A stretch of 38,981 nucleotides of DNA, taken from NCBI GenBank assembly GCA_029777225.1, contig JAKOSR010000065.1, positions 1 through 38,981 of the forward strand. Direction: 5' to 3'. The notes under the pieces are model-generated. The model was not told the DNA's origin. It did not search any database and saw only the letters and a list, made by a program, of their open reading frames with translations. Position 1 is the stretch's first letter; every line of letters starts with the position of its first letter. This document shows positions 5,931 through 18,225 of the stretch, one piece after another. The translations under genes and the position numbers were made by a program. Source of the DNA: Chloroflexota bacterium (lineage in GTDB: Bacteria > Chloroflexota > Anaerolineae > Anaerolineales > Anaerolineaceae).

Positions 5931-5956
5931 AATCCGCCTGTCATCGCGATAATTAT

Positions 5957-5985
5957 AATGCTCCAGCCCTCAAGGCTGGAGCATT
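5957..5985. terminator. Perfect 12-bp stem-loop between folC and the upstream TPR/TM gene
   Basis: AATGCTCCAGCC-ctcaa-GGCTGGAGCATT; on the minus strand it is followed by an A/T-rich tract (ataattat). Confidence 0.6.
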
Positions 5986-6017
5986 TGTACGCGTTCGGGA
6001 TGTTCGTGAAAAGTTAA

Positions 6018-7868
6018 TCAGGGCGTGGTCAGGTCCATCATCAGAACGTAACCAATGATGGCAAAAGAGCTGCCCCTGAACTCAACGAGCACGCATTCGC
6101 GGTTGAAGTTGTCAAAACGTCGCTCGGACATGGGCAACAAGGTCAGGGTGGTGCCGGCTGGGATGCGGCCCGTGGCACTATAATTGTCGTAACAATCATT
6201 GCGGGCCCAGACTTCGCGAATGGTCGCAACTGTGATGATTGGGGTTGGGGTCGCGGTGTACGTTGGGGTCGGGGAATAATCCGGCGTGGGAGTCAGGGTG
6301 ACCGTCGGGGTTTGGGTGATAGTCGGCGTGAGGGTGATGGTGGGTGTGCGGGTCACCGTGGGGGTGAGGGCCAGGTTGCGCTCACGAACAGCGTTACTGA
6401 TACCGCGCACGGCCGTGGAGAGGAGCAGGACGAGGAACACCACGGAGAGAAGCAGTCCCAAGCCTCCCAGCAAATAGGTGGGTAGGAAACCGCGCTTGAG
6501 TTCCAGAATTTTCGGGTCCTGGGGGAAACGGCGGCCGGCATCGCGATTGATGCGCAACGCAGCAAGGTTGAAGAAACGATTGCCGTCCTTGAGGGCGTCT
6601 TCCGCGCGTTTGATGGAATCCTCGTGTTTGCCAATTTGTGACTCGAGCTCACTAATCTCGTTTTCCAACGAGAGACTCTGGGAATCGTAGGCGTCCAGCT
6701 TACGCAAAAGGTCAAGGTTTTCACGCGCGCCGGCAACCTTTTGCCTGGCAAGCGAGACGGTGGGTGCGGTGGTGGCATCCTGCTTGAGCCGCAGGGTGTT
6801 ATCGAGGAGCGATTGGATGGTGGCCGGGATCAGGAGGTCAAGGCGGTTGCGAAGCCGGCTGATTTGCGAGATTTCGCCGTATTTCATCCTGACACGTTCA
6901 AGCTTGGCCTTGGAGTCTGCCAGTTTTTCCGGTGGAATCTTGCCGCTGCTGCTGACCACATCGCTGACTTCATCCAGTGCCGCGATGTCGGCGCGCACTT
7001 CCGCGGCTTTGTCGATGTATTCGGGGATGGCCACGGCGCTGGCAGCCGTCTGGATTTTCCCCAGCGCGGTCACTAACTCACCCTGGGAAAGCAAATTGAG
7101 GCCTTCCTTGTATACATCATAAGCCTGCATCTGGTTTTCAAGGTCGTGACGCAGCTCTTCACCTTCGCGCCAGCGCTTGATGCCAGCCTCCTGCAGGTGC
7201 TCGAAGGCCTCGTCAAGATAATTGAGGGCCACCTTATAACGAAAGACGCGCGCAGCACTTTGCGCTTTTCCGTAGGCTTTACCGGCATCGGGCGGGAGGG
7301 CAACTGAAGGAATATTGCCGGAACGAAGGTAATCCTCCGCTTCGGTGTGGTGTTCCTGGGCCCGGGTCCAGGCTGGCTCGAGCTGTAAGACCTTTTCGTA
7401 AAGAGGGATGGCGACCTGGTAATTGCCCTTGTAGAAGGCTTCTTCGGCCTCATCCATCATGCGTTCGGCGTCAGGGTCGTGCGAGGAGGTGAAGAACTTG
7501 CGCAGGGGATCTACACCCAGGCCGCCAGTGTCATCGCTGCCACGGAGGGAACTGCGGGTGATGCGTGGGGCTGCAGGTTCGGCGGGGTTTTGCGGGGCAG
7601 AGGCAGCCGGAGCCTGGTCAATGGCTGATCGGGCGGGTTTGGACGCGGATCCTGCCCCAGCGGCACGCCTGCTGCGTTCACGGCGGAGGTCCCTCAGGAG
7701 CCGGTTGGCATCCTCCAGGTCATCGATGTTGACGTTTTCCGTAATCCGTTTCGTGGCGAGGGCTTCCAGGTAGGTGGAAAGACTGCTTTCCACCTGGGCA
7801 AGTTCTTCGTCACTCGGATTTTCCTGTTCAAGTATCTTGTTGGCCTGTTCAATGAGCTCAGAAATCAT
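6018..7868 (-). CDS. TPR/coiled-coil protein with one transmembrane helix, Thr-Pro-rich linker and C-terminal SH3-like domain
   Basis: TPR-like AEEAFYKGNYQVAIPLYEKVLQLEPAWTRAQ; TM LLGGLGLLLSVVFLVLLLSTAV; TPTVTRTPTITLTPTITQTPTVTLTPTPDYSPTPTYTATPTP linker; C-terminal VWARNDCYDNYSATGRIPAGTTLTLL...GYVLMMDL. Confidence 0.85.
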   Translation of the reverse strand: MISELIEQANKILEQENPSDEELAQVESSLSTYLEALATKRITENVNIDDLEDANRLLRDLRRERSRRAAGAGSASKPARSAIDQAPAASAPQNPAEPAAPRITRSSLRGSDDTGGLGVDPLRKFFTSSHDPDAERMMDEAEEAFYKGNYQVAIPLYEKVLQLEPAWTRAQEHHTEAEDYLRSGNIPSVALPPDAGKAYGKAQSAARVFRYKVALNYLDEAFEHLQEAGIKRWREGEELRHDLENQMQAYDVYKEGLNLLSQGELVTALGKIQTAASAVAIPEYIDKAAEVRADIAALDEVSDVVSSSGKIPPEKLADSKAKLERVRMKYGEISQISRLRNRLDLLIPATIQSLLDNTLRLKQDATTAPTVSLARQKVAGARENLDLLRKLDAYDSQSLSLENEISELESQIGKHEDSIKRAEDALKDGNRFFNLAALRINRDAGRRFPQDPKILELKRGFLPTYLLGGLGLLLSVVFLVLLLSTAVRGISNAVRERNLALTPTVTRTPTITLTPTITQTPTVTLTPTPDYSPTPTYTATPTPIITVATIREVWARNDCYDNYSATGRIPAGTTLTLLPMSERRFDNFNRECVLVEFRGSSFAIIGYVLMMDLTTP

Positions 7869-7904
7869 TGAGGTCCTTTCGAGCCGGGGAAGCCGGCATC
7901 CTGT

Positions 7905-8915
7905 TTATTGTCTTTTCTTTTGCAGGCTTTGCAGCGTTTCTTTCATTTCCCCGGCACTGGAGAAACCGCCATCGAGCGCTTTTTCGAGGAATCGCATCTC
8001 ATCCGCGTTGAGGCGGTTTTGCACGTCAAACGAATAAGAGGCCTTGTAGCGCGTGGGGGCATTGGCGATGTCTTCGGGGCGGTTTGGACCCACAGCAACG
8101 GTGCCAGGGGCCTGTCTGCCGGTGAAGATGTGGTGGAGCGCCCTGGAGCTGAATTGGACCAGGTCAGCCTGCTGGACTTCAGGCGAAAACCTGCCTGGAA
8201 GCCAATGACCGATATTCCAATCAATCATTATTACTTTTTGGCGAAAATCGTTCCAGTAATAGTGCAGGAGTTTATGGTCCAGGTAGGTGGCTCCCTGGCT
8301 GTGGGCTGTTTCGAGCATCCCACAAATTTGCGTTGCGATGTCCAACACTTGTTTCATGCTCAAATTACGCACGAAATTACCGCGGGTGTAGCCGGCATCG
8401 CAAACCAGGTACAGGTTATCTTCCCAGCGGCGCTCAAGGATAAGGAAAGGCAGCCAATCATCGGCCAGGCGTTCCTCGAACTGGTCCAGCACGTCTGTAA
8501 TTTCATCCGGCTCAAAAACGACCAGCCTGCCGGTTATTTTGCTCGCAGCGCCCTGTTCCTCCATTTGCTTTGAAAGGGGGGCGATTTCGGAAGGCCAGCC
8601 GCTTCCGTTGGTTAGTTTAAGGTAACCGGCCTGCAACATCGGGGTTAGGCCATCAAGGCCATGCAAACCTGCCAGGATGTTCAGTTCTTCAAGGAAAAGC
8701 GGCCGGGCATAGGCAATTTTATCGTGGCGCATCACCTTGAAGGCAGGGTCCCTGCGATAGGGTGAGAGGCCGATGGCATTTTTTAGCAGAAATACGCGGG
8801 CACTCGAGCCAGCCGCTTCCGGGATGGCGTAGTCTTGTTGGCCCGCGGTCAACCAGGTATCGAGCGGTTCGCCGAGATAAAGCCCGGTTCGCGCGTCCAA
8901 ATTTAATTCTCGCAT
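7905..8915 (-). CDS. Divergent protein-kinase-like protein (336 aa)
   Basis: AGSSARVFLLKN (G-loop-like), FKVMR (VAIK-like), EELNIL (alpha-C Glu), YLDHKLLHYYW (catalytic loop), VIMIDWNIG (DFG-like). Confidence 0.7.
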   Translation of the reverse strand: MRELNLDARTGLYLGEPLDTWLTAGQQDYAIPEAAGSSARVFLLKNAIGLSPYRRDPAFKVMRHDKIAYARPLFLEELNILAGLHGLDGLTPMLQAGYLKLTNGSGWPSEIAPLSKQMEEQGAASKITGRLVVFEPDEITDVLDQFEERLADDWLPFLILERRWEDNLYLVCDAGYTRGNFVRNLSMKQVLDIATQICGMLETAHSQGATYLDHKLLHYYWNDFRQKVIMIDWNIGHWLPGRFSPEVQQADLVQFSSRALHHIFTGRQAPGTVAVGPNRPEDIANAPTRYKASYSFDVQNRLNADEMRFLEKALDGGFSSAGEMKETLQSLQKKRQ

Positions 8916-8945
8916 GTGTTTTGTTCTCCAAATGGCGGAGCAATT

Positions 8946-11837
8946 TTACCATTTCCGCTGGTCAGGCAAGTCAAAGTAGTCTACATCCCGCTTGGCAAGC
9001 TCGTCAAACCAGGGGAGAAGTGGATGGATGGATTCGATGTTTTTGATTTCGTCGCGGAGGCTGAGACGGCTGCCACTCTTGAGAAGATTGAGATATTGTT
9101 GCTGCCAGTCGCGCACCACAACCCTGCCACGGGTGGGCGGCTGGACCAAACCCTGAAGCTGGACCAAGGCAAACATCAGGTCTCCAGCGCTATTTTGTGC
9201 CAGGCGGGTGCGGGCTAATTCTGGTTGCCGGATGACTTCCAGCGCGTGCAAGGCGGAGCGAAGATAGCGAATGACCTGCAAGAAGGTGTTGTTTATGCCG
9301 CTAAAAAAGGACTGGTTGACCCGCACCAACCAGCGCACGGTCGGATTGGGGGACTGTTCGGATTGTTGCCAGAACCTGAAAAAGGATTCCGATGTGGTTT
9401 CCATTTGGGAGAGCAAATCGAGGGCGAGTTCAGGGTAAAAGCCCTGGTATTCAATCCTGTCCCAATTCCGGTTGAAGGCGGAGAGGGCGTCTTGTGTTTT
9501 AAAGAGGGGTTCCAGGCGAGCCTGTGAACGGTCCACTTTGGGCAGCTGTGCCCAATGTTTTTGTCTGATTTCGCCAAGCAAGGGCAGGACGATGGTGCGC
9601 CAATTCCTGCTGGTTTGGTCCAGTTGCTGGAGCACCAGCCAAGGAGAGTCCGCGTAGTTTACGGTCGGGCTGGTGCTGAGCAGCTGGCCCTGGCGACTAT
9701 CCTTTTGCCAATCCCGCACGTTAGCAAGCACCTGGATGGCCTCTTCGACACGCGCCTGATCCTCCAGGGGAAAATCCGCAGCTTTGAGGTCCATCTCTTC
9801 ATGCACCAAGGCTGAAAAGAGGGAGCCAAAAGCTTCGTGAAGTTGTTTATAGAGGCTGTAAAACCTGGGCAAATGAAGACGAACTTGTTCAAGCCCCTGT
9901 TGGTTGGCTGGCTCCTGCTTGAGAAGCTGGTGGTAGAGGTCGAGAGCCGCCTTTTGGATGGTGTCCAAGGGGCGTTGGCGTTCTTCCTCGGCAGGCGCGT
10001 CCAGGTGGAGGGTGGTGTATTCCAGCCATGGGAAGGGCCAGCTCTCCGCAAGGGCGCGGGCCTGGAGCTGCTCGAGGTCGATTGCCCCTGCCATTTCATC
10101 GACCAGGCTCAGTCCTTCTTCCAGCCAGGGTGGCGTGCCAAGCTCATTTATGACCTCAAGGGGTGTGGCCTGCAGGTTTTTGGCGAAGCACGTGAGGGTC
10201 TCAGAGGCTTGAGGGCCCGCGCGCAAGCGACGCATCCAGGCATCGACATCCTCGAGGTGGTCGAAGATGGTGTACAGGTAATCCATGGTGGGGTCCTGGA
10301 GAAAAAGGTCCCACAAGCTTTGGCGGGTTTTCGGTAAGTCCTCCTCGCCCCAGCTGTGATAAACCGCGCGGATGGAAGCGACCAGGTTGGTGAGCCAGGC
10401 CACCCGCTTGCGGGGTAAGTCGAGCCCATATTCCAGAAGAGCGTTGAGGTCCTGGCGGGCTGTCAGCAACCTGGCGCCGAGGGTTTCTCCGGGGGCAAGT
10501 TCGCGCCAACCCCGCAAGGTAGTGCTTAAGCGTTCGGCCAAAGCCCCCAGCTGCTGGAGAAGGTCAGCATCATCCGGGTTCTGTATCTGCTGGCGGATAA
10601 TGACCACGTGCAAGTTGTCCAGCGCTTCGGAAAGGAGGTCGGGGACGGGACTCAGGTCGGTGCCGGCAGGCAGGGCGGTTTCGCGGATGGAACGTAGCAT
10701 TTCATCGTAATCGGCAAGTCCGAGGTGCAGGTCCTTTAAGAGCCAGGCTGCCTCCGCCCAGCTTTCACTCATAAGGGCCACGAGCAGTTGAGCGAGGGGC
10801 TGGCGGGAATCCTCGCCCTCCATTGAAAGCAACTTTGCCGTAATCAGCCATTTGGGCTCGGTTTTTGCTTCTGCTTGCCCGGCAATCAGGCCAACCACTT
10901 CTTTGGCAGCGGCAAGGTTACCCTGCCCTGCCAACTGCATAACGAGCGTAGCGACGGCCTGGAAAAGTGGCCCAAATTCGACCGTCTGGCCGGCCCTCTC
11001 CAGTTTTGCTTTTGTCTCCAGGGCCAGGCGGAGCATTTGCGCGTCCTGCAGTTCCCGCGCCGCTTTTTTAATCACCAATTCATCTTCAATCACGCGCATG
11101 GAAAGATAAGTCTGCAGGTAATCAACCCGGAATTGGAGTTGGTCGATATCCTGTCCTGAAAGGGTCGCGCCGTTTGATGGCCAACCCACCTGGGTGGCGA
11201 GTTCCGGAGCTACCTGGCTGAAGAGGAGTGTGCCCTCATTAAAGAGCTGTTGGTAATCCACGTAGGGATCCACGGTGGCAGGCAGTGCACTTGGGTCAAA
11301 AAGCAGGCCATTACCCCAGTCAATGAAGGAAAGTTTATCCTTCTCACGCTCCCAAAAGATATGCTCCATCTTGACATCATTCCAAATGACGCCGCGCTGG
11401 TGAACCTGTTTGAGCAGCTCAAACGCTGCGCCCAAGACCTTGAGAACGAGGACCTGGGAAAAGTTGGCTTCCCCCTGGTAAAGTTGCTTTAACAAGGAAG
11501 AGATGGACTCGCCCTGCACCTGTTCACTAATGATGAAGTAATTGGAAGTGTGGGATGTACCCTGGATACTTTCATCCATAAGGAGTGGGGTGTGAATTTG
11601 CAGGCCATTGCGCCTGGCTTCCACACCGCCCAGTTGTTTGAGGATTTGACCTTCACTTTCGATTTGAACAGCCTGGCGCACGATGGTACCCCCGGAGACG
11701 TTCTGCAGGGGTCGCTTGAGAACGCCTGACTGGTCTGCCAGTTCCTGACGTACCCGCAGCACTTCGCCGGCATCTCCTGACCCAATGACCTCGAGCAGCT
11801 GCCAGCTTTTTTCTCTTCCACGTACTGATTTGGCCAT
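8946..11837 (-). CDS. Large protein-kinase-like protein with long helical C-terminal extension (~963 aa)
   Basis: MAKSVRGREKSWQLLEVIGSGDAGEVLRV (Gly-rich loop), GVLKRP (VAIK-like), GVIWNDVKMEHIFW (catalytic loop), LSFIDWGNG (DFG-like). ATG at 11837 preferred over the track start 11888. Confidence 0.75.
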   Translation of the reverse strand: MAKSVRGREKSWQLLEVIGSGDAGEVLRVRQELADQSGVLKRPLQNVSGGTIVRQAVQIESEGQILKQLGGVEARRNGLQIHTPLLMDESIQGTSHTSNYFIISEQVQGESISSLLKQLYQGEANFSQVLVLKVLGAAFELLKQVHQRGVIWNDVKMEHIFWEREKDKLSFIDWGNGLLFDPSALPATVDPYVDYQQLFNEGTLLFSQVAPELATQVGWPSNGATLSGQDIDQLQFRVDYLQTYLSMRVIEDELVIKKAARELQDAQMLRLALETKAKLERAGQTVEFGPLFQAVATLVMQLAGQGNLAAAKEVVGLIAGQAEAKTEPKWLITAKLLSMEGEDSRQPLAQLLVALMSESWAEAAWLLKDLHLGLADYDEMLRSIRETALPAGTDLSPVPDLLSEALDNLHVVIIRQQIQNPDDADLLQQLGALAERLSTTLRGWRELAPGETLGARLLTARQDLNALLEYGLDLPRKRVAWLTNLVASIRAVYHSWGEEDLPKTRQSLWDLFLQDPTMDYLYTIFDHLEDVDAWMRRLRAGPQASETLTCFAKNLQATPLEVINELGTPPWLEEGLSLVDEMAGAIDLEQLQARALAESWPFPWLEYTTLHLDAPAEEERQRPLDTIQKAALDLYHQLLKQEPANQQGLEQVRLHLPRFYSLYKQLHEAFGSLFSALVHEEMDLKAADFPLEDQARVEEAIQVLANVRDWQKDSRQGQLLSTSPTVNYADSPWLVLQQLDQTSRNWRTIVLPLLGEIRQKHWAQLPKVDRSQARLEPLFKTQDALSAFNRNWDRIEYQGFYPELALDLLSQMETTSESFFRFWQQSEQSPNPTVRWLVRVNQSFFSGINNTFLQVIRYLRSALHALEVIRQPELARTRLAQNSAGDLMFALVQLQGLVQPPTRGRVVVRDWQQQYLNLLKSGSRLSLRDEIKNIESIHPLLPWFDELAKRDVDYFDLPDQRKW

Positions 11838-11928
11838 GTTGCCATTATATACCAGCCGGGAAATGTCAAAAGCACGGGGAGAGGGCACGTCAGAAAGCGC
11901 TCTACCGCTGGAACTCTGCCGGTTTACC

Positions 11929-12054: not shown

Positions 12055-13146
12055 ATGATGGAATACGGGCGTATCTACAATTTTTCTGCAGGTCCCAGCA
12101 TGTTACCCCTTCCAGTGCTCGAAGAAGTACGCGACGAATTATTGAATTATCGCGGTTCGGGCATGTGCGTCATGGAAATGAGTCACCGCAGCAAGGTTTT
12201 TGACAACATCATTTGCGAGGCTGAAGCCGACCTGCGCCAACTCATGAACATTCCCTCCAACTACAAGGTTCTTTTCATCCAAGGCGGCGCCACGCTGCAG
12301 TTCGCGGGCATCCCGATGAACCTGCTAAAGAACGGGGTGGCGGATTACATCGTGACGGGCTATTGGTCCAAGAAAGCTTTCAGTGAAGCCAAAAAGTACG
12401 GCAAAATCAACTTACTGGCCAGCAGCGAGGATAAGAACTACAGCTACATCCCTGAGCTCGACGACCTGCCAGTGGCAGCGGACGCGGATTATGTTTACAT
12501 CTGCGAGAATGAAACCATCCACGGTACGACCTACCAGGAACTACCGAACACGAAGGGGAAGGTGTTGGTCTCTGACCAATCTTCCATGTTCCTCTCGCAG
12601 CCATGCAATGTCGCGGATTACGGGCTTATCTACGCCGGGGCGCAGAAAAACGTAGGGCCGGCCGGGCTAGTCATCACGATTATCCGCGAGGACTTAATCC
12701 GCAAAGAATTGGATAACAAGGTGCCCACCTATATCCGCTTTGACACCCACGCGGAAAACAATTCCATGTACAACACCCCCAACTGCTGGGCTATTTACGT
12801 GTGCGGCAAGGTATTCAAGTACCTGCAGAAGCTGGGCGGGCTGGAGGTCATGCACCAAATGAACCTGGCCAAGGCCAAACCGCTCTATGATTTCCTGGAC
12901 GCTAGTGAAATGTTCCGTGGAACAGTCGCCAAGAAATATCGCTCGTTGATGAATGTCCCGTTCGTGACCAAGGACGCCGAATTGGATGCCCAAGTGGTGG
13001 CGGCCAGCAAGGTTGCTGGATTTGACAACCTCAAAGGGCACAAATCGGTCGGTGGTTTACGCGCTTCGATTTACAACGCCATGCCCAAGGAAGGCGTTGA
13101 CGCCCTGGTGGACTTCCTCAAGGATTTTGAGGCAAAGAACATCTAA
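12055..13146 (+). CDS. serC: Phosphoserine aminotransferase
   Basis: YNFSAGPSMLPLPVLEEVRDELLNY, MEMSHRSKVF, FIQGGATLQFAGIPMNLL, YAGAQKNVGPAGL (PLP Lys); start 12055 or 12058. Confidence 0.95.
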   Translation: MMEYGRIYNFSAGPSMLPLPVLEEVRDELLNYRGSGMCVMEMSHRSKVFDNIICEAEADLRQLMNIPSNYKVLFIQGGATLQFAGIPMNLLKNGVADYIVTGYWSKKAFSEAKKYGKINLLASSEDKNYSYIPELDDLPVAADADYVYICENETIHGTTYQELPNTKGKVLVSDQSSMFLSQPCNVADYGLIYAGAQKNVGPAGLVITIIREDLIRKELDNKVPTYIRFDTHAENNSMYNTPNCWAIYVCGKVFKYLQKLGGLEVMHQMNLAKAKPLYDFLDASEMFRGTVAKKYRSLMNVPFVTKDAELDAQVVAASKVAGFDNLKGHKSVGGLRASIYNAMPKEGVDALVDFLKDFEAKNI

Positions 13147-15043: not shown

Positions 15044-15174
15044 GGGCATAAGTTTATGATGCTGGGAGGGAAAAGTCAACGTAAAAACGCGAAATATGCC
15101 TGGAAAAGGCGCCAGGGAGTCTTTCCATGTTAAAATGCATGAGCTTTTGCACCTCAACATCACCGGAGCTAAAC

Positions 15175-18100
15175 ATGAAAATAGATAAGAGACCGACAAA
15201 AGCGGCCAAACGGATTGCCATATTCGCCGCTGTTTTGCTGTTCCTTGGCCTGGCTTTTGGTTCCACCCAGGCCCAATCCACGCCGGGCGGCTGGCTGCCT
15301 TTTGGGGAAAACCCAACCCAAGGCGGGCCAGTGGTGGAGCTGGTCAGCGCCGACGGGAATGAAATTGTGCTGCAGGCCAGTTTTGCAGGCATCGAGTACA
15401 CCACCGTGGAAATTGACGGCAGCAGCTACACTTCCTTGAGTGCAGCGGGATACGACACTGCAGGTGCTGTTGGACAGCCGGCGCTACCCGTGGTCCACCG
15501 CCTGATTGAAATCCCTTATGGCGCGCAGGTGGACATTGAGGTCACCTCGTTGGTCAGCCAGGTCATCAAAATGGATTTGGCTGGATTGCGTTACCCAATC
15601 GTTCCCCGGCAGCCTGCGCAACCGAAATGTGGGGACCCCATCCCCAACGTGGTGCCAGACAGGCTGACTTATCAATCGGCCCAATCAGTGCCACAATCCC
15701 CTGTGACCATCGTAAAGGAAACCATGGTGAGGGGGCACCGACTCATCATGCTGGAAATGGCGCCGGTGCGCTATAACCCCGCCTCGGCTGAGCTGGATAC
15801 CATCTCGGAAGTAAACATCCGGCTCAAACTTACCGGAAGCGATGTAGCCAACACCCTGGTCGAGTTGAATCGTTTGAGCTCAAGCTCGTTTGATGATGTT
15901 TTGAGCGGTTCCGTGATGAATTACAACCTGGGACAAACCTCGCTAGCCAGCAAAACCGGTGAGCGATACCTGATCATCACCGCGAACGCGTATGAAAGCG
16001 CGCTTGCCTCATTTGTGAGCCTGAAGCAAAGCCAGGGGTTTTCAGTCAGCCTGGTCAATCTGAGCACCACGGGGACCGACACGACCAGCATCAAAAATTA
16101 CATCCGTGGACAATACCAGGGCACGACACCACCTGTGTACGTCCTCCTGGTGGGCGATTACAACGATGGCGAAGATTCACTGACCAACTGGCCATTCCGT
16201 TCGTCAGGTCAATCCAGTTACCGCACGGACCTGGAATACTTCACCATGGACGGGAACACTGATTTTGTTCCCGACATGCTGTATGGACGGTTTCCGGTGA
16301 GGGATGTGGTCCAGGTGGGCAACATCACCGCGAAATTAGTGGCTTACGAGGCTGCCAATGGCTCTGAGGTGTGGGTTAAAAAAGCGGAATTTTTAGCCTC
16401 CAACGACAGCAGTTTCTATGATGTGGCTGAAGCGACACATAACTACGTAATTAACACCTATACCCTGCCCAAAGGTTACAGCGGCATCTTCCCGAATAAC
16501 CCACAGCCTGGAGGAGACAAGATTTATGCCATCACGTATGGTGGAACAGGCGCGAACGCGGTCACTTCGATGAATGACGACCGGTCCTTCGTGGTCTATA
16601 GCGGACACGGGGCTTCCACGTTTTGGGATAACCCGCGCGTTACACAAACGGACATCCGCAACCTGACTGGTGTGGCAATCCCCTACATCGGCTCACATGC
16701 CTGCGTGACGGCGGACTTTAACACCAACGAATCCTTTGGAGACACATGGATTGTTGAGCCCGTGAATGGCGCACTCACCTACCTGGGCGCGAGCGACAAC
16801 TCCTATTGGGATGAAGATGACCTCCTGGAGCGGACCATCTTTGATACGCTTTACGCGGACCCGGCGATGGTGAACGTGCCTTCAGTTGGCGCGTTCAGAC
16901 AGGCTGGCCTGCTGGCAGTGGACGATTCGGGCTCCTCGTTGGGTAACTACTACTGGGAGGAATACCACATCTTTGGTGACCCCAGCTTAAAAATTACACT
17001 CAAACCCAAGTATCCTGATTTTAGCGTTTCCGTTACACCTGGCACTGCAAAGGTATGCAACACGGGTAGCGTCCAGGCCGAGGTCAGCCTTGGAAGTCAG
17101 AACAACTTCGCATCCCCGGTGAACCTGAATACCTCCACAGTGACAGGGTTTGGCAGCCAGCTTAACCCTGCTTCGCCCATTGTCCCTCCCAACAGCACTA
17201 CGTTGACCCTAAGCGGGAATGGAACTGCAACGCTTGGAACACAGACTGTGGTTGTGACTGGAACGTCCGGCAGCCTGACCCACAGCGCTGAGCTGGCCTT
17301 GTCTGTTTACCCACAGGTGAGCACCGGGCCACAACTTAGCCAGCCTGGCAACGGGGCCGTGAACGTATCGCCAAAACCAACCTTCAGTTGGGTCGCCATC
17401 CCACAGGCAGAAACCTACACCCTCGAAGTTGCCACGGACGCGGCGTTTACACACGTGGTCATCTCCAAGCCTGGCATCACCACAAGCACCTACACGCCAC
17501 TCAACGACCTGCCCACTGATACCGCGTTTTACTGGCGAGTTTCCGCGGTTAATATTTGTGGATCGGCTGTCAGCGCAGAGGCCTTCAGCTTTACAACACG
17601 CCCAGGGCCTGGCGATTGCCCGGTAGGAACCGTGAAATCGTCCATCTTCGTTGAGGATTTTGAAACAGGAATGGATGGCTGGAGTGAGCAAACCAATAGC
17701 TACTACGGCGTTAAGTGGGAGCTGACCACCGTACGTGCGCTTTCGCCCAGCCACGCGGTTTTGGCCACGGTACCTGAGAAAATAAGCGACCAGCGGCTTG
17801 CCTCGCCTGCGCTGGCCGTTCCACAATCAGCTAACCCGATTTCCCTGATTTTCTGGCACCGGTGGACCTTTGACAGCCAGACTTCCTGCAACGATGGTGG
17901 CATTTTGGAGTCTTCAGTCAATAACGGAACAACTTGGAAAATCGTGCCTGTCACCAGCATCCTGACTACACCTTACAACGGCGTTATTGCCAGTGGAAGT
18001 TATAACCCGATGACGGGAAAAACCGCCTGGTGCGGCACCTCGGACTGGGTGCGCTCCGTGGTGGATTTGGAGAGTTTCAAGGGTCAGACGGTACAATTCC

Positions 18101-18225
18101 GGTTCAGGCTTGGCTCTGGCGTCTTAGGTGCGGCTGAGGGCTGGTATTTGGATGATGTCGCGCTGCAGCAATGCGTGGATCCCGCGTCCATCAACCGCAT
18201 CTTCATGCCATTTATCAATCGGTAG
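15175..18225 (+). CDS. Secreted peptidase C25 (gingipain-like) with C-terminal Ig/fibronectin-like and MAM-like domains
   Basis: Signal peptide MKIDKRPTKAAKRIAIFAAVLLFLGLAFGSTQAQS; ERYLIITANAYESALASFVSLKQSQGFSVSLV; catalytic His VVYSGHGAS and Cys YIGSHACVTADFN; C-terminal VEDFETGMDGWS...GWYLDDVAL. Confidence 0.85.
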   Translation: MKIDKRPTKAAKRIAIFAAVLLFLGLAFGSTQAQSTPGGWLPFGENPTQGGPVVELVSADGNEIVLQASFAGIEYTTVEIDGSSYTSLSAAGYDTAGAVGQPALPVVHRLIEIPYGAQVDIEVTSLVSQVIKMDLAGLRYPIVPRQPAQPKCGDPIPNVVPDRLTYQSAQSVPQSPVTIVKETMVRGHRLIMLEMAPVRYNPASAELDTISEVNIRLKLTGSDVANTLVELNRLSSSSFDDVLSGSVMNYNLGQTSLASKTGERYLIITANAYESALASFVSLKQSQGFSVSLVNLSTTGTDTTSIKNYIRGQYQGTTPPVYVLLVGDYNDGEDSLTNWPFRSSGQSSYRTDLEYFTMDGNTDFVPDMLYGRFPVRDVVQVGNITAKLVAYEAANGSEVWVKKAEFLASNDSSFYDVAEATHNYVINTYTLPKGYSGIFPNNPQPGGDKIYAITYGGTGANAVTSMNDDRSFVVYSGHGASTFWDNPRVTQTDIRNLTGVAIPYIGSHACVTADFNTNESFGDTWIVEPVNGALTYLGASDNSYWDEDDLLERTIFDTLYADPAMVNVPSVGAFRQAGLLAVDDSGSSLGNYYWEEYHIFGDPSLKITLKPKYPDFSVSVTPGTAKVCNTGSVQAEVSLGSQNNFASPVNLNTSTVTGFGSQLNPASPIVPPNSTTLTLSGNGTATLGTQTVVVTGTSGSLTHSAELALSVYPQVSTGPQLSQPGNGAVNVSPKPTFSWVAIPQAETYTLEVATDAAFTHVVISKPGITTSTYTPLNDLPTDTAFYWRVSAVNICGSAVSAEAFSFTTRPGPGDCPVGTVKSSIFVEDFETGMDGWSEQTNSYYGVKWELTTVRALSPSHAVLATVPEKISDQRLASPALAVPQSANPISLIFWHRWTFDSQTSCNDGGILESSVNNGTTWKIVPVTSILTTPYNGVIASGSYNPMTGKTAWCGTSDWVRSVVDLESFKGQTVQFRFRLGSGVLGAAEGWYLDDVALQQCVDPASINRIFMPFINR

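Follow-up and report, generated by a model that had tools for sequence, protein, structure and literature searches.

We identify here three genes that form a conserved unit in bacteria of the class Anaerolineae. They encode two divergent kinases, KIN1 and KIN2, and a protein with a TPR-like core, a predicted transmembrane (TM) helix and an SH3b-like C-terminal domain. In the 38,981-nt stretch of Chloroflexota DNA that was analyzed, referred to as a whole as the window, all three genes are on the minus strand (Table 1). With moderate confidence, we propose that the trio constitutes one membrane-coupled phospho-signaling module, in which the TPR-SH3b protein would act as a receptor or scaffold for two cytosolic kinases.

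Table 1. Positions of the trio and its parts in the window
Feature	Position	Strand	Description
KIN1	8946..11837	minus	963 aa; N-terminal kinase domain, then long helical body; Pfam Pkinase; orthologs at all trio loci
KIN1 kinase domain	11307..11801	minus	residues 13-177; K41, E62, D154, H159, D173
KIN1 catalytic loop to DFG-like motif	11310..11384	minus	WNDVKMEH ... IDWGN, residues 152-176
KIN1 helical body	8949..11207	minus	residues 211-963; fast-evolving, 28-38% identity in genus
KIN2	7905..8915	minus	336 aa; divergent kinase
KIN2 catalytic loop DHKLLH	8262..8279	minus	residues 213-218; D, K and H invariant in 18 rows
TPR-TM-SH3b protein	6018..7868	minus	616 aa
Ser/Thr/Pro-rich disordered linker	7488..7646	minus	residues 75-127; length variable
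TPR-like helical core	6504..7487	minus	residues 128-455
Predicted transmembrane helix	6417..6473	minus	residues 466-484; hydropathy and AF2 helix 462-500
Thr-Pro repeat stalk	6246..6365	minus	residues 502-541
SH3b-like C-terminal barrel	6021..6236	minus	residues 545-616; invariant C559 and C592
12-bp hairpin between trio and folC	5957-5985	minus	candidate transcript end without U-tract

An earlier, sequence-only reading of the window had described these three open reading frames, and we recovered them with the same coordinates and lengths, together with the short gaps between them (30 nt between KIN1 and KIN2, 36 nt between KIN2 and the TPR gene). In about 50 species, the frames are conserved and uninterrupted, far above chance expectation. 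As the start of KIN1, homolog comparison led us to prefer the ATG at 11837 to an upstream GTG at 11888 because most homologs have the same first residue. A divergent serC (12055-13146) is located upstream of KIN1, and folC and lon are downstream of the TPR gene on the same strand; these were named by eye from their translations, and orthologous neighbors occur in the genus. Also named by eye from its translation, recG is at the start of the window, and positions 15127-18225 encode a large secreted protein that by eye has the look of a gingipain-type (C25) peptidase.

The shared strand and short gaps suggest that the trio is an operon. A promoter scan upstream of KIN1 returned nothing above chance. 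The hairpin that had been thought to close the unit holds as a stem, which is stabler than shuffled sequences (z -3.7); it has no U-tract and was not scored as a terminator. In the gap between the TPR gene and folC (window 5931-6017), sequence-unrelated stems are present in four other species (L101, L135, L146 and L150). They are clearly above shuffles in L101 and L150 (z -3.8 and -3.2) and weakly so in the two others (z -1.8 and -1.9), and the stem of L146, one of the weak pair, is the only one with a U-tract (six U). Taken as a group, the hairpins fit a transcript end before folC without proving one.

Among 101 relatives, 29 have all three genes, 70 have none and two have KIN1 only. The genomes with a strong match to KIN2 and those with a strong match to the TPR protein are the same 29, and KIN1 occurs in those and the two others; presence in the family is patchy. 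In one of the KIN1-only genomes (G008), a contig end falls inside KIN1. The other (G011, locus L104) belongs to the window's genus. Its KIN1 is broken into two frames and adjoins a DegV-like gene, neither KIN2 nor the TPR gene is matched anywhere in the genome, and we read this KIN1 as a decaying or misassembled copy.

A collection scan returned 56 loci, all titled Chloroflexi, Chloroflexota or a taxon within Anaerolineae. Wherever the flanking sequence suffices, the order KIN1, KIN2 and TPR on one strand is maintained with one exception, and the intergenic gaps of the split form are mostly 6-50 nt. At L164, of a Brevefilum MAG, and at L199 (both Brevefilum C14-21), approximately 5 kb with four other open reading frames lies between KIN1 and KIN2. 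This is the only interrupted linked case and offers a natural test of the importance of adjacency. Neighborhood analysis across Anaerolineae shows that the trio co-occurs, and orthologs are not scattered within the window's family. The surroundings differ by clade: serC, folC and lon in the window's genus, yebC and ruvA upstream in a Brevefilum-like group, and PPK2 and metallo-beta-lactamase genes in A. thermophila. We rejected a larger conserved operon because the neighbors beyond the trio change between clades. No phosphatase or other signaling gene adjoins the trio in the contexts read.

KIN1 and KIN2 are a single polypeptide of approximately 1000 aa in 14 full-length proteins, or 17 with partial ones, from at least 14 species. 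This natural fusion argues strongly for joint action of the two kinases. Split forms constitute one clade (100/100), and fused forms are not clearly one clade. Beyond the family, genes for KIN1 (1290-1454 aa), KIN2 (~377 aa) and a TPR-SH3b protein (741-815 aa) are found side by side in the distant families f60, f62, f64 and f69, where the KIN2 of f69 was located by search at the expected place. In family f34, there is one strong match each for KIN1 and the TPR protein, and the genes are at different loci in the genomes read. A TPR ortholog at E 1e-187 or better was present in all 13 searched genomes with KIN1 and KIN2 (11 of f34, one of f69 and one of f70) and absent from all four searched genomes without KIN2. 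That the three genes occur together even where they are unlinked is the strongest argument for a joint function of their products. Along with conserved gene order and natural fusion, this co-occurrence upholds the earlier proposal of a dedicated module of two kinases and a membrane protein. No match fell outside the class in a sample of the phylum, for which the number of other classes is not shown.

The patchy presence in the family, together with matches of KIN1 to PADLOC PD-T4-6 models (up to 2.5e-9), could point to an anti-phage defense module. We consider this very improbable: the PADLOC matches are confined to the kinase domain, as many kinases would give, the neighbors in the genus are housekeeping genes with no defense genes adjoining in the contexts read, and the trio extends across the class, each of its genes forming one clade. 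Identity of KIN1 with the PD-T4-6 defense kinase was rejected, given that the match lies within residues 6-181 of 963 aa and the neighbors are housekeeping genes. PD-T4-6 and MAD6 are similar to the proteins described here in the kinase domain but not beyond it, and the trio lacks a defense context.

Both KIN1 and KIN2 belong to the kinase superfamily. The N-terminal kinase-like domain previously assigned to KIN1 matches Pfam Pkinase over the cutoff (residues 13-177; 33.0 bits versus 31.7). For KIN2 of the window by itself, Pfam gives no match; in an alignment of 18 KIN2 rows, 10 match Pfam Pkinase (best 3e-11), and the profile of this alignment matches M. tuberculosis PknB among PDB entries (1.7e-8), which substantiates the description of KIN2 as kinase-like. 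We also examined an AF2 model of the natural KIN1-KIN2 fusion of Anaerolinea thermolimosa (L170, 998 aa). The model has a mean pLDDT of 89.5 and kinase-type secondary structure at both ends, with approximately 400 helical residues between them; its pTM is 0.58 and the domain arrangement is not reliable. Its best structural match is PknB, with a TM-score of 0.71 by target length, where either domain may be the matched one. The kinase folds anticipated from the sequence are supported by sequence profiles and by the modeled fold of the fusion.

The key residues of the superfamily are Lys72, Glu91, Asp166, Asp184 and Asp220 in PKA numbering (PMC1821047). The residues K41, E62, D154 (the HRD Asp), D173 (the DFG Asp) and D194 of KIN1, which are invariant in 16 diverse rows, and K60, E77, D213, D232 and D251 of KIN2 map to these positions; the exception to the correspondence is a His at the PKA N171 equivalent. 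In KIN2, G36, K215, H218 and N234 are also invariant, like the above, in 18 rows, and the glycine loop GSSARV keeps a single Gly. The canonical Hanks motifs HRDxKxxN and DFG are absent, with WNDVKxxH and DWG in KIN1 and [Y/F]xDHKxxH and DWN in KIN2. The motifs W-N-D-V/I-K-x-x-H and I-D-W-G-N of KIN1 are present in 44 of 44 close-group rows. KIN1 proteins of distant families have YNDVD or HNDVD, without the Lys after the catalytic Asp, and one distant KIN1 has Gln instead of His at the position equivalent to PKA N171. The two other Pkinase matches of the window's genome retain Asn and DFG.

In WaaP, H168, a His at this Mg-ligand place, coordinates the second Mg2+ (PMC6147952), and the replacement of the Mg-binding Asn by His in KIN1 and KIN2 is thus compatible with catalysis. 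The same likeness to WaaP (PMC6147952), the weak match of KIN1 to the Pfam Kdo/WaaP family (E 0.01, and E 0.001 in a distant ortholog) and the weak matches of fused KIN1 proteins to APH lend something to an alternative that we regard as unlikely, namely that KIN1 and KIN2 act not on proteins but on an envelope molecule or another small acceptor, as WaaP does on heptose, and that the TPR-SH3b protein localizes them to the membrane. The WaaP/Kdo kinase family (PF06293; PMC6147952) has in common with the kinases studied here the His for the second Mg-binding Asn and a kinase-like fold; unlike WaaP, KIN1 of the window's group retains the Lys that follows the catalytic Asp in protein kinases, and there are two kinases and a TPR partner. 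Scores for this family are below its cutoff of 21.3 bits, at 15.7 for KIN1 and 19.0 for the best ortholog, whereas Pkinase is the better match throughout and PknB ranks first by profile and by fold. To our knowledge, WaaP has no extra helical body, second kinase or TPR partner, which also counts against an envelope-molecule kinase.

It is quite improbable, in our estimation, that catalysis is confined to one of the two kinases and that its partner serves as an allosteric activator or a structural element; the noncatalytic role would fall either to KIN1, whose body is variable, or to KIN2, whose glycine loop is minimal. The invariant Lys, Glu, catalytic Asp and DFG Asp in both proteins would be unusual for a dead kinase, even though the single loop Gly of KIN2, the WND in place of HRD in KIN1, the loss of the Lys after Asp in distant families and the fast evolution of the KIN1 body are in keeping with such a division.

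KIN1 and KIN2 had been described as paralogous or partner kinases. Partnership is supported by the natural fusion and by co-occurrence, but close paralogy is not. In a tree with six canonical kinases, KIN1 (94/90) and KIN2 (100/98) are recovered as two distinct clades, and each of these includes near as well as distant members. The canonical kinases group with KIN2 (94/90), and therefore close paralogy is not supported and we rejected KIN1 and KIN2 as sister paralogs. The His substitution is common to both, and comparison of the two profiles indicates kinship at the level of the superfamily (probability 95.6).

Outside the kinase domain, KIN1 has no family match. The very long helical C terminus predicted earlier holds for the approximately 400 aa of the body that are homologous to the fused form and all helical in the fusion model; the last ~300 aa of the window KIN1 are without counterpart there. 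The distant KIN1 proteins at L189, L191, L193, L194 and L195 are 1290-1558 aa long, with a body of more than 1000 aa without known fold. According to hhalign, the C terminus of distant KIN1 resembles the TPR protein (probability 98), a likeness that may reflect helical repeats in general. Within the genus, the TPR core has a mean identity of 80% to the window, followed by KIN2 (72%), the SH3b domain (64%), the KIN1 kinase domain (58%) and the KIN1 body (28-38%). Constraint in the module is strongest on the TPR core, as expected of a docking surface, and variation is greatest in the KIN1 body.

The layout attributed to the third protein, with TPR-like, TM, Thr-Pro and SH3-like parts, is supported by several lines of evidence. 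TPR_2 matches are found in 19 of 28 family members (best 1.1e-9); orthologs exceed the Pfam TPR cutoff, and the window protein does not reach it (20.3 versus 27). Hydropathy identifies one strongly hydrophobic segment (466-484). In an AF2 model, TPR-like helices, arranged in pairs, occupy residues 122-447, a helix at 462-500 passes through the membrane segment, residues 75-127 and parts of 502-541 are disordered, and a six-stranded barrel is formed at 545-609. Pfam SH3_3 matches the same place in four distant orthologs, three of them above the cutoff, which places the domain among SH3 barrels (PF08239); for the window protein, this assignment is based on the barrel model and a weak profile match to SH3_3 domains, which runs along the length of the window domain (probability 25%, E 7.5e-4; shuffled controls, E at least 0.016). 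C559 and C592, invariant among orthologs, would fit a disulfide in an outer domain. The TPR/TM/SH3b layout is also visible in f34 and f70 orthologs. In the TPR gene of A. thermolimosa IMO-1 (L170), a run of N in the Thr-Pro linker leaves the C-terminal domain unreadable.

In the mechanism that we propose for a membrane-coupled module, the TPR-TM-SH3b protein would be receptor and scaffold in the membrane. Its topology would expose the SH3b domain outward on the Thr-Pro stalk, where it would bind an envelope ligand, and would leave the large TPR core in the cytosol, in contact with the two soluble kinases that it would hold. Ligand binding by SH3b would be signaled via the single TM helix to the TPR core. 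KIN1 and KIN2 would act as an obligate pair, as a single polypeptide in some species, and upon engagement of the outer domain their activity would be directed at each other, at the scaffold or at a downstream protein as substrate. Counting against a module of this kind, both active sites are atypical (HRD to WND in KIN1; His for Asn), distant KIN1 has lost the Lys that follows the catalytic Asp, the SH3b match of the window protein is weak, the trio is patchy within its family and no phosphatase or other signaling gene lies beside it in the contexts read.

Elsewhere in the genome, the only PP2C_2 match (L219, 7389-8405 of contig C134) is beside a response-regulator-like gene and unlinked to the trio; its product is a candidate opposing phosphatase. 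Canonical kinases with C-terminal hydrophobic segments are encoded at L220 (112-1275) and L221 (6136-7164), the former adjoining, by eye, an mraZ-like gene and cell-division genes.

By profile and fold, the closest kinase domains are those of the PASTA Ser/Thr kinases (PknB, PrkC and StkP), and the proposed logic common to both would be a membrane-linked kinase with an outer sensing domain. PASTA kinases contain the kinase, the TM segment and PASTA repeats in one protein. Unlike these, the system described here has separate kinases and receptor, two kinase families, an SH3b-like outer domain and His for Asn, and Pfam gave no PASTA match in KIN1, KIN2 or the TPR protein, which places the trio outside the PASTA kinases. 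A Synechocystis protein with a kinase inside and SH3b beyond a TM segment (PMC1262709) has the same parts on the two membrane sides; it is a single polypeptide with a single kinase, for which no TPR part is described, in contrast to three genes and two kinases here. Kinase and TPR are also combined in PknG of M. tuberculosis, and 2pzi is among the structural matches of the fusion. PknG is soluble and carries its TPR part within the kinase protein. Models in Pfam, NCBIfam and PADLOC give partial matches and none describes the trio, and no description of it was found in open-access papers. The parts are of known kinds; what appears to be new is the way they are combined, along with the two kinase families and the signature of the active site.

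In conclusion, the sequence-only reading is partly supported: the module, the kinase folds and the TPR/TM/SH3-like architecture stand, and close paralogy of the kinases does not. More tentatively, the trio could represent an undescribed class-wide signaling system of Anaerolineae, in which two different kinase families, both with a His Mg-ligand, would pair obligately for catalysis on a TPR-SH3b receptor in the membrane, as a counterpart in three parts to envelope sensing by PASTA kinases. Sequence defines the module well enough for direct testing, as two kinase families with non-standard active sites and a receptor-like partner. The natural fused form will be helpful for structural work, and the module is present in a cultured strain, A. 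thermolimosa IMO-1. Anaerolineae are common in digesters and sediments, and their signaling is little studied. In these bacteria, the module would amount to a membrane kinase receptor whose parts are distinct proteins.
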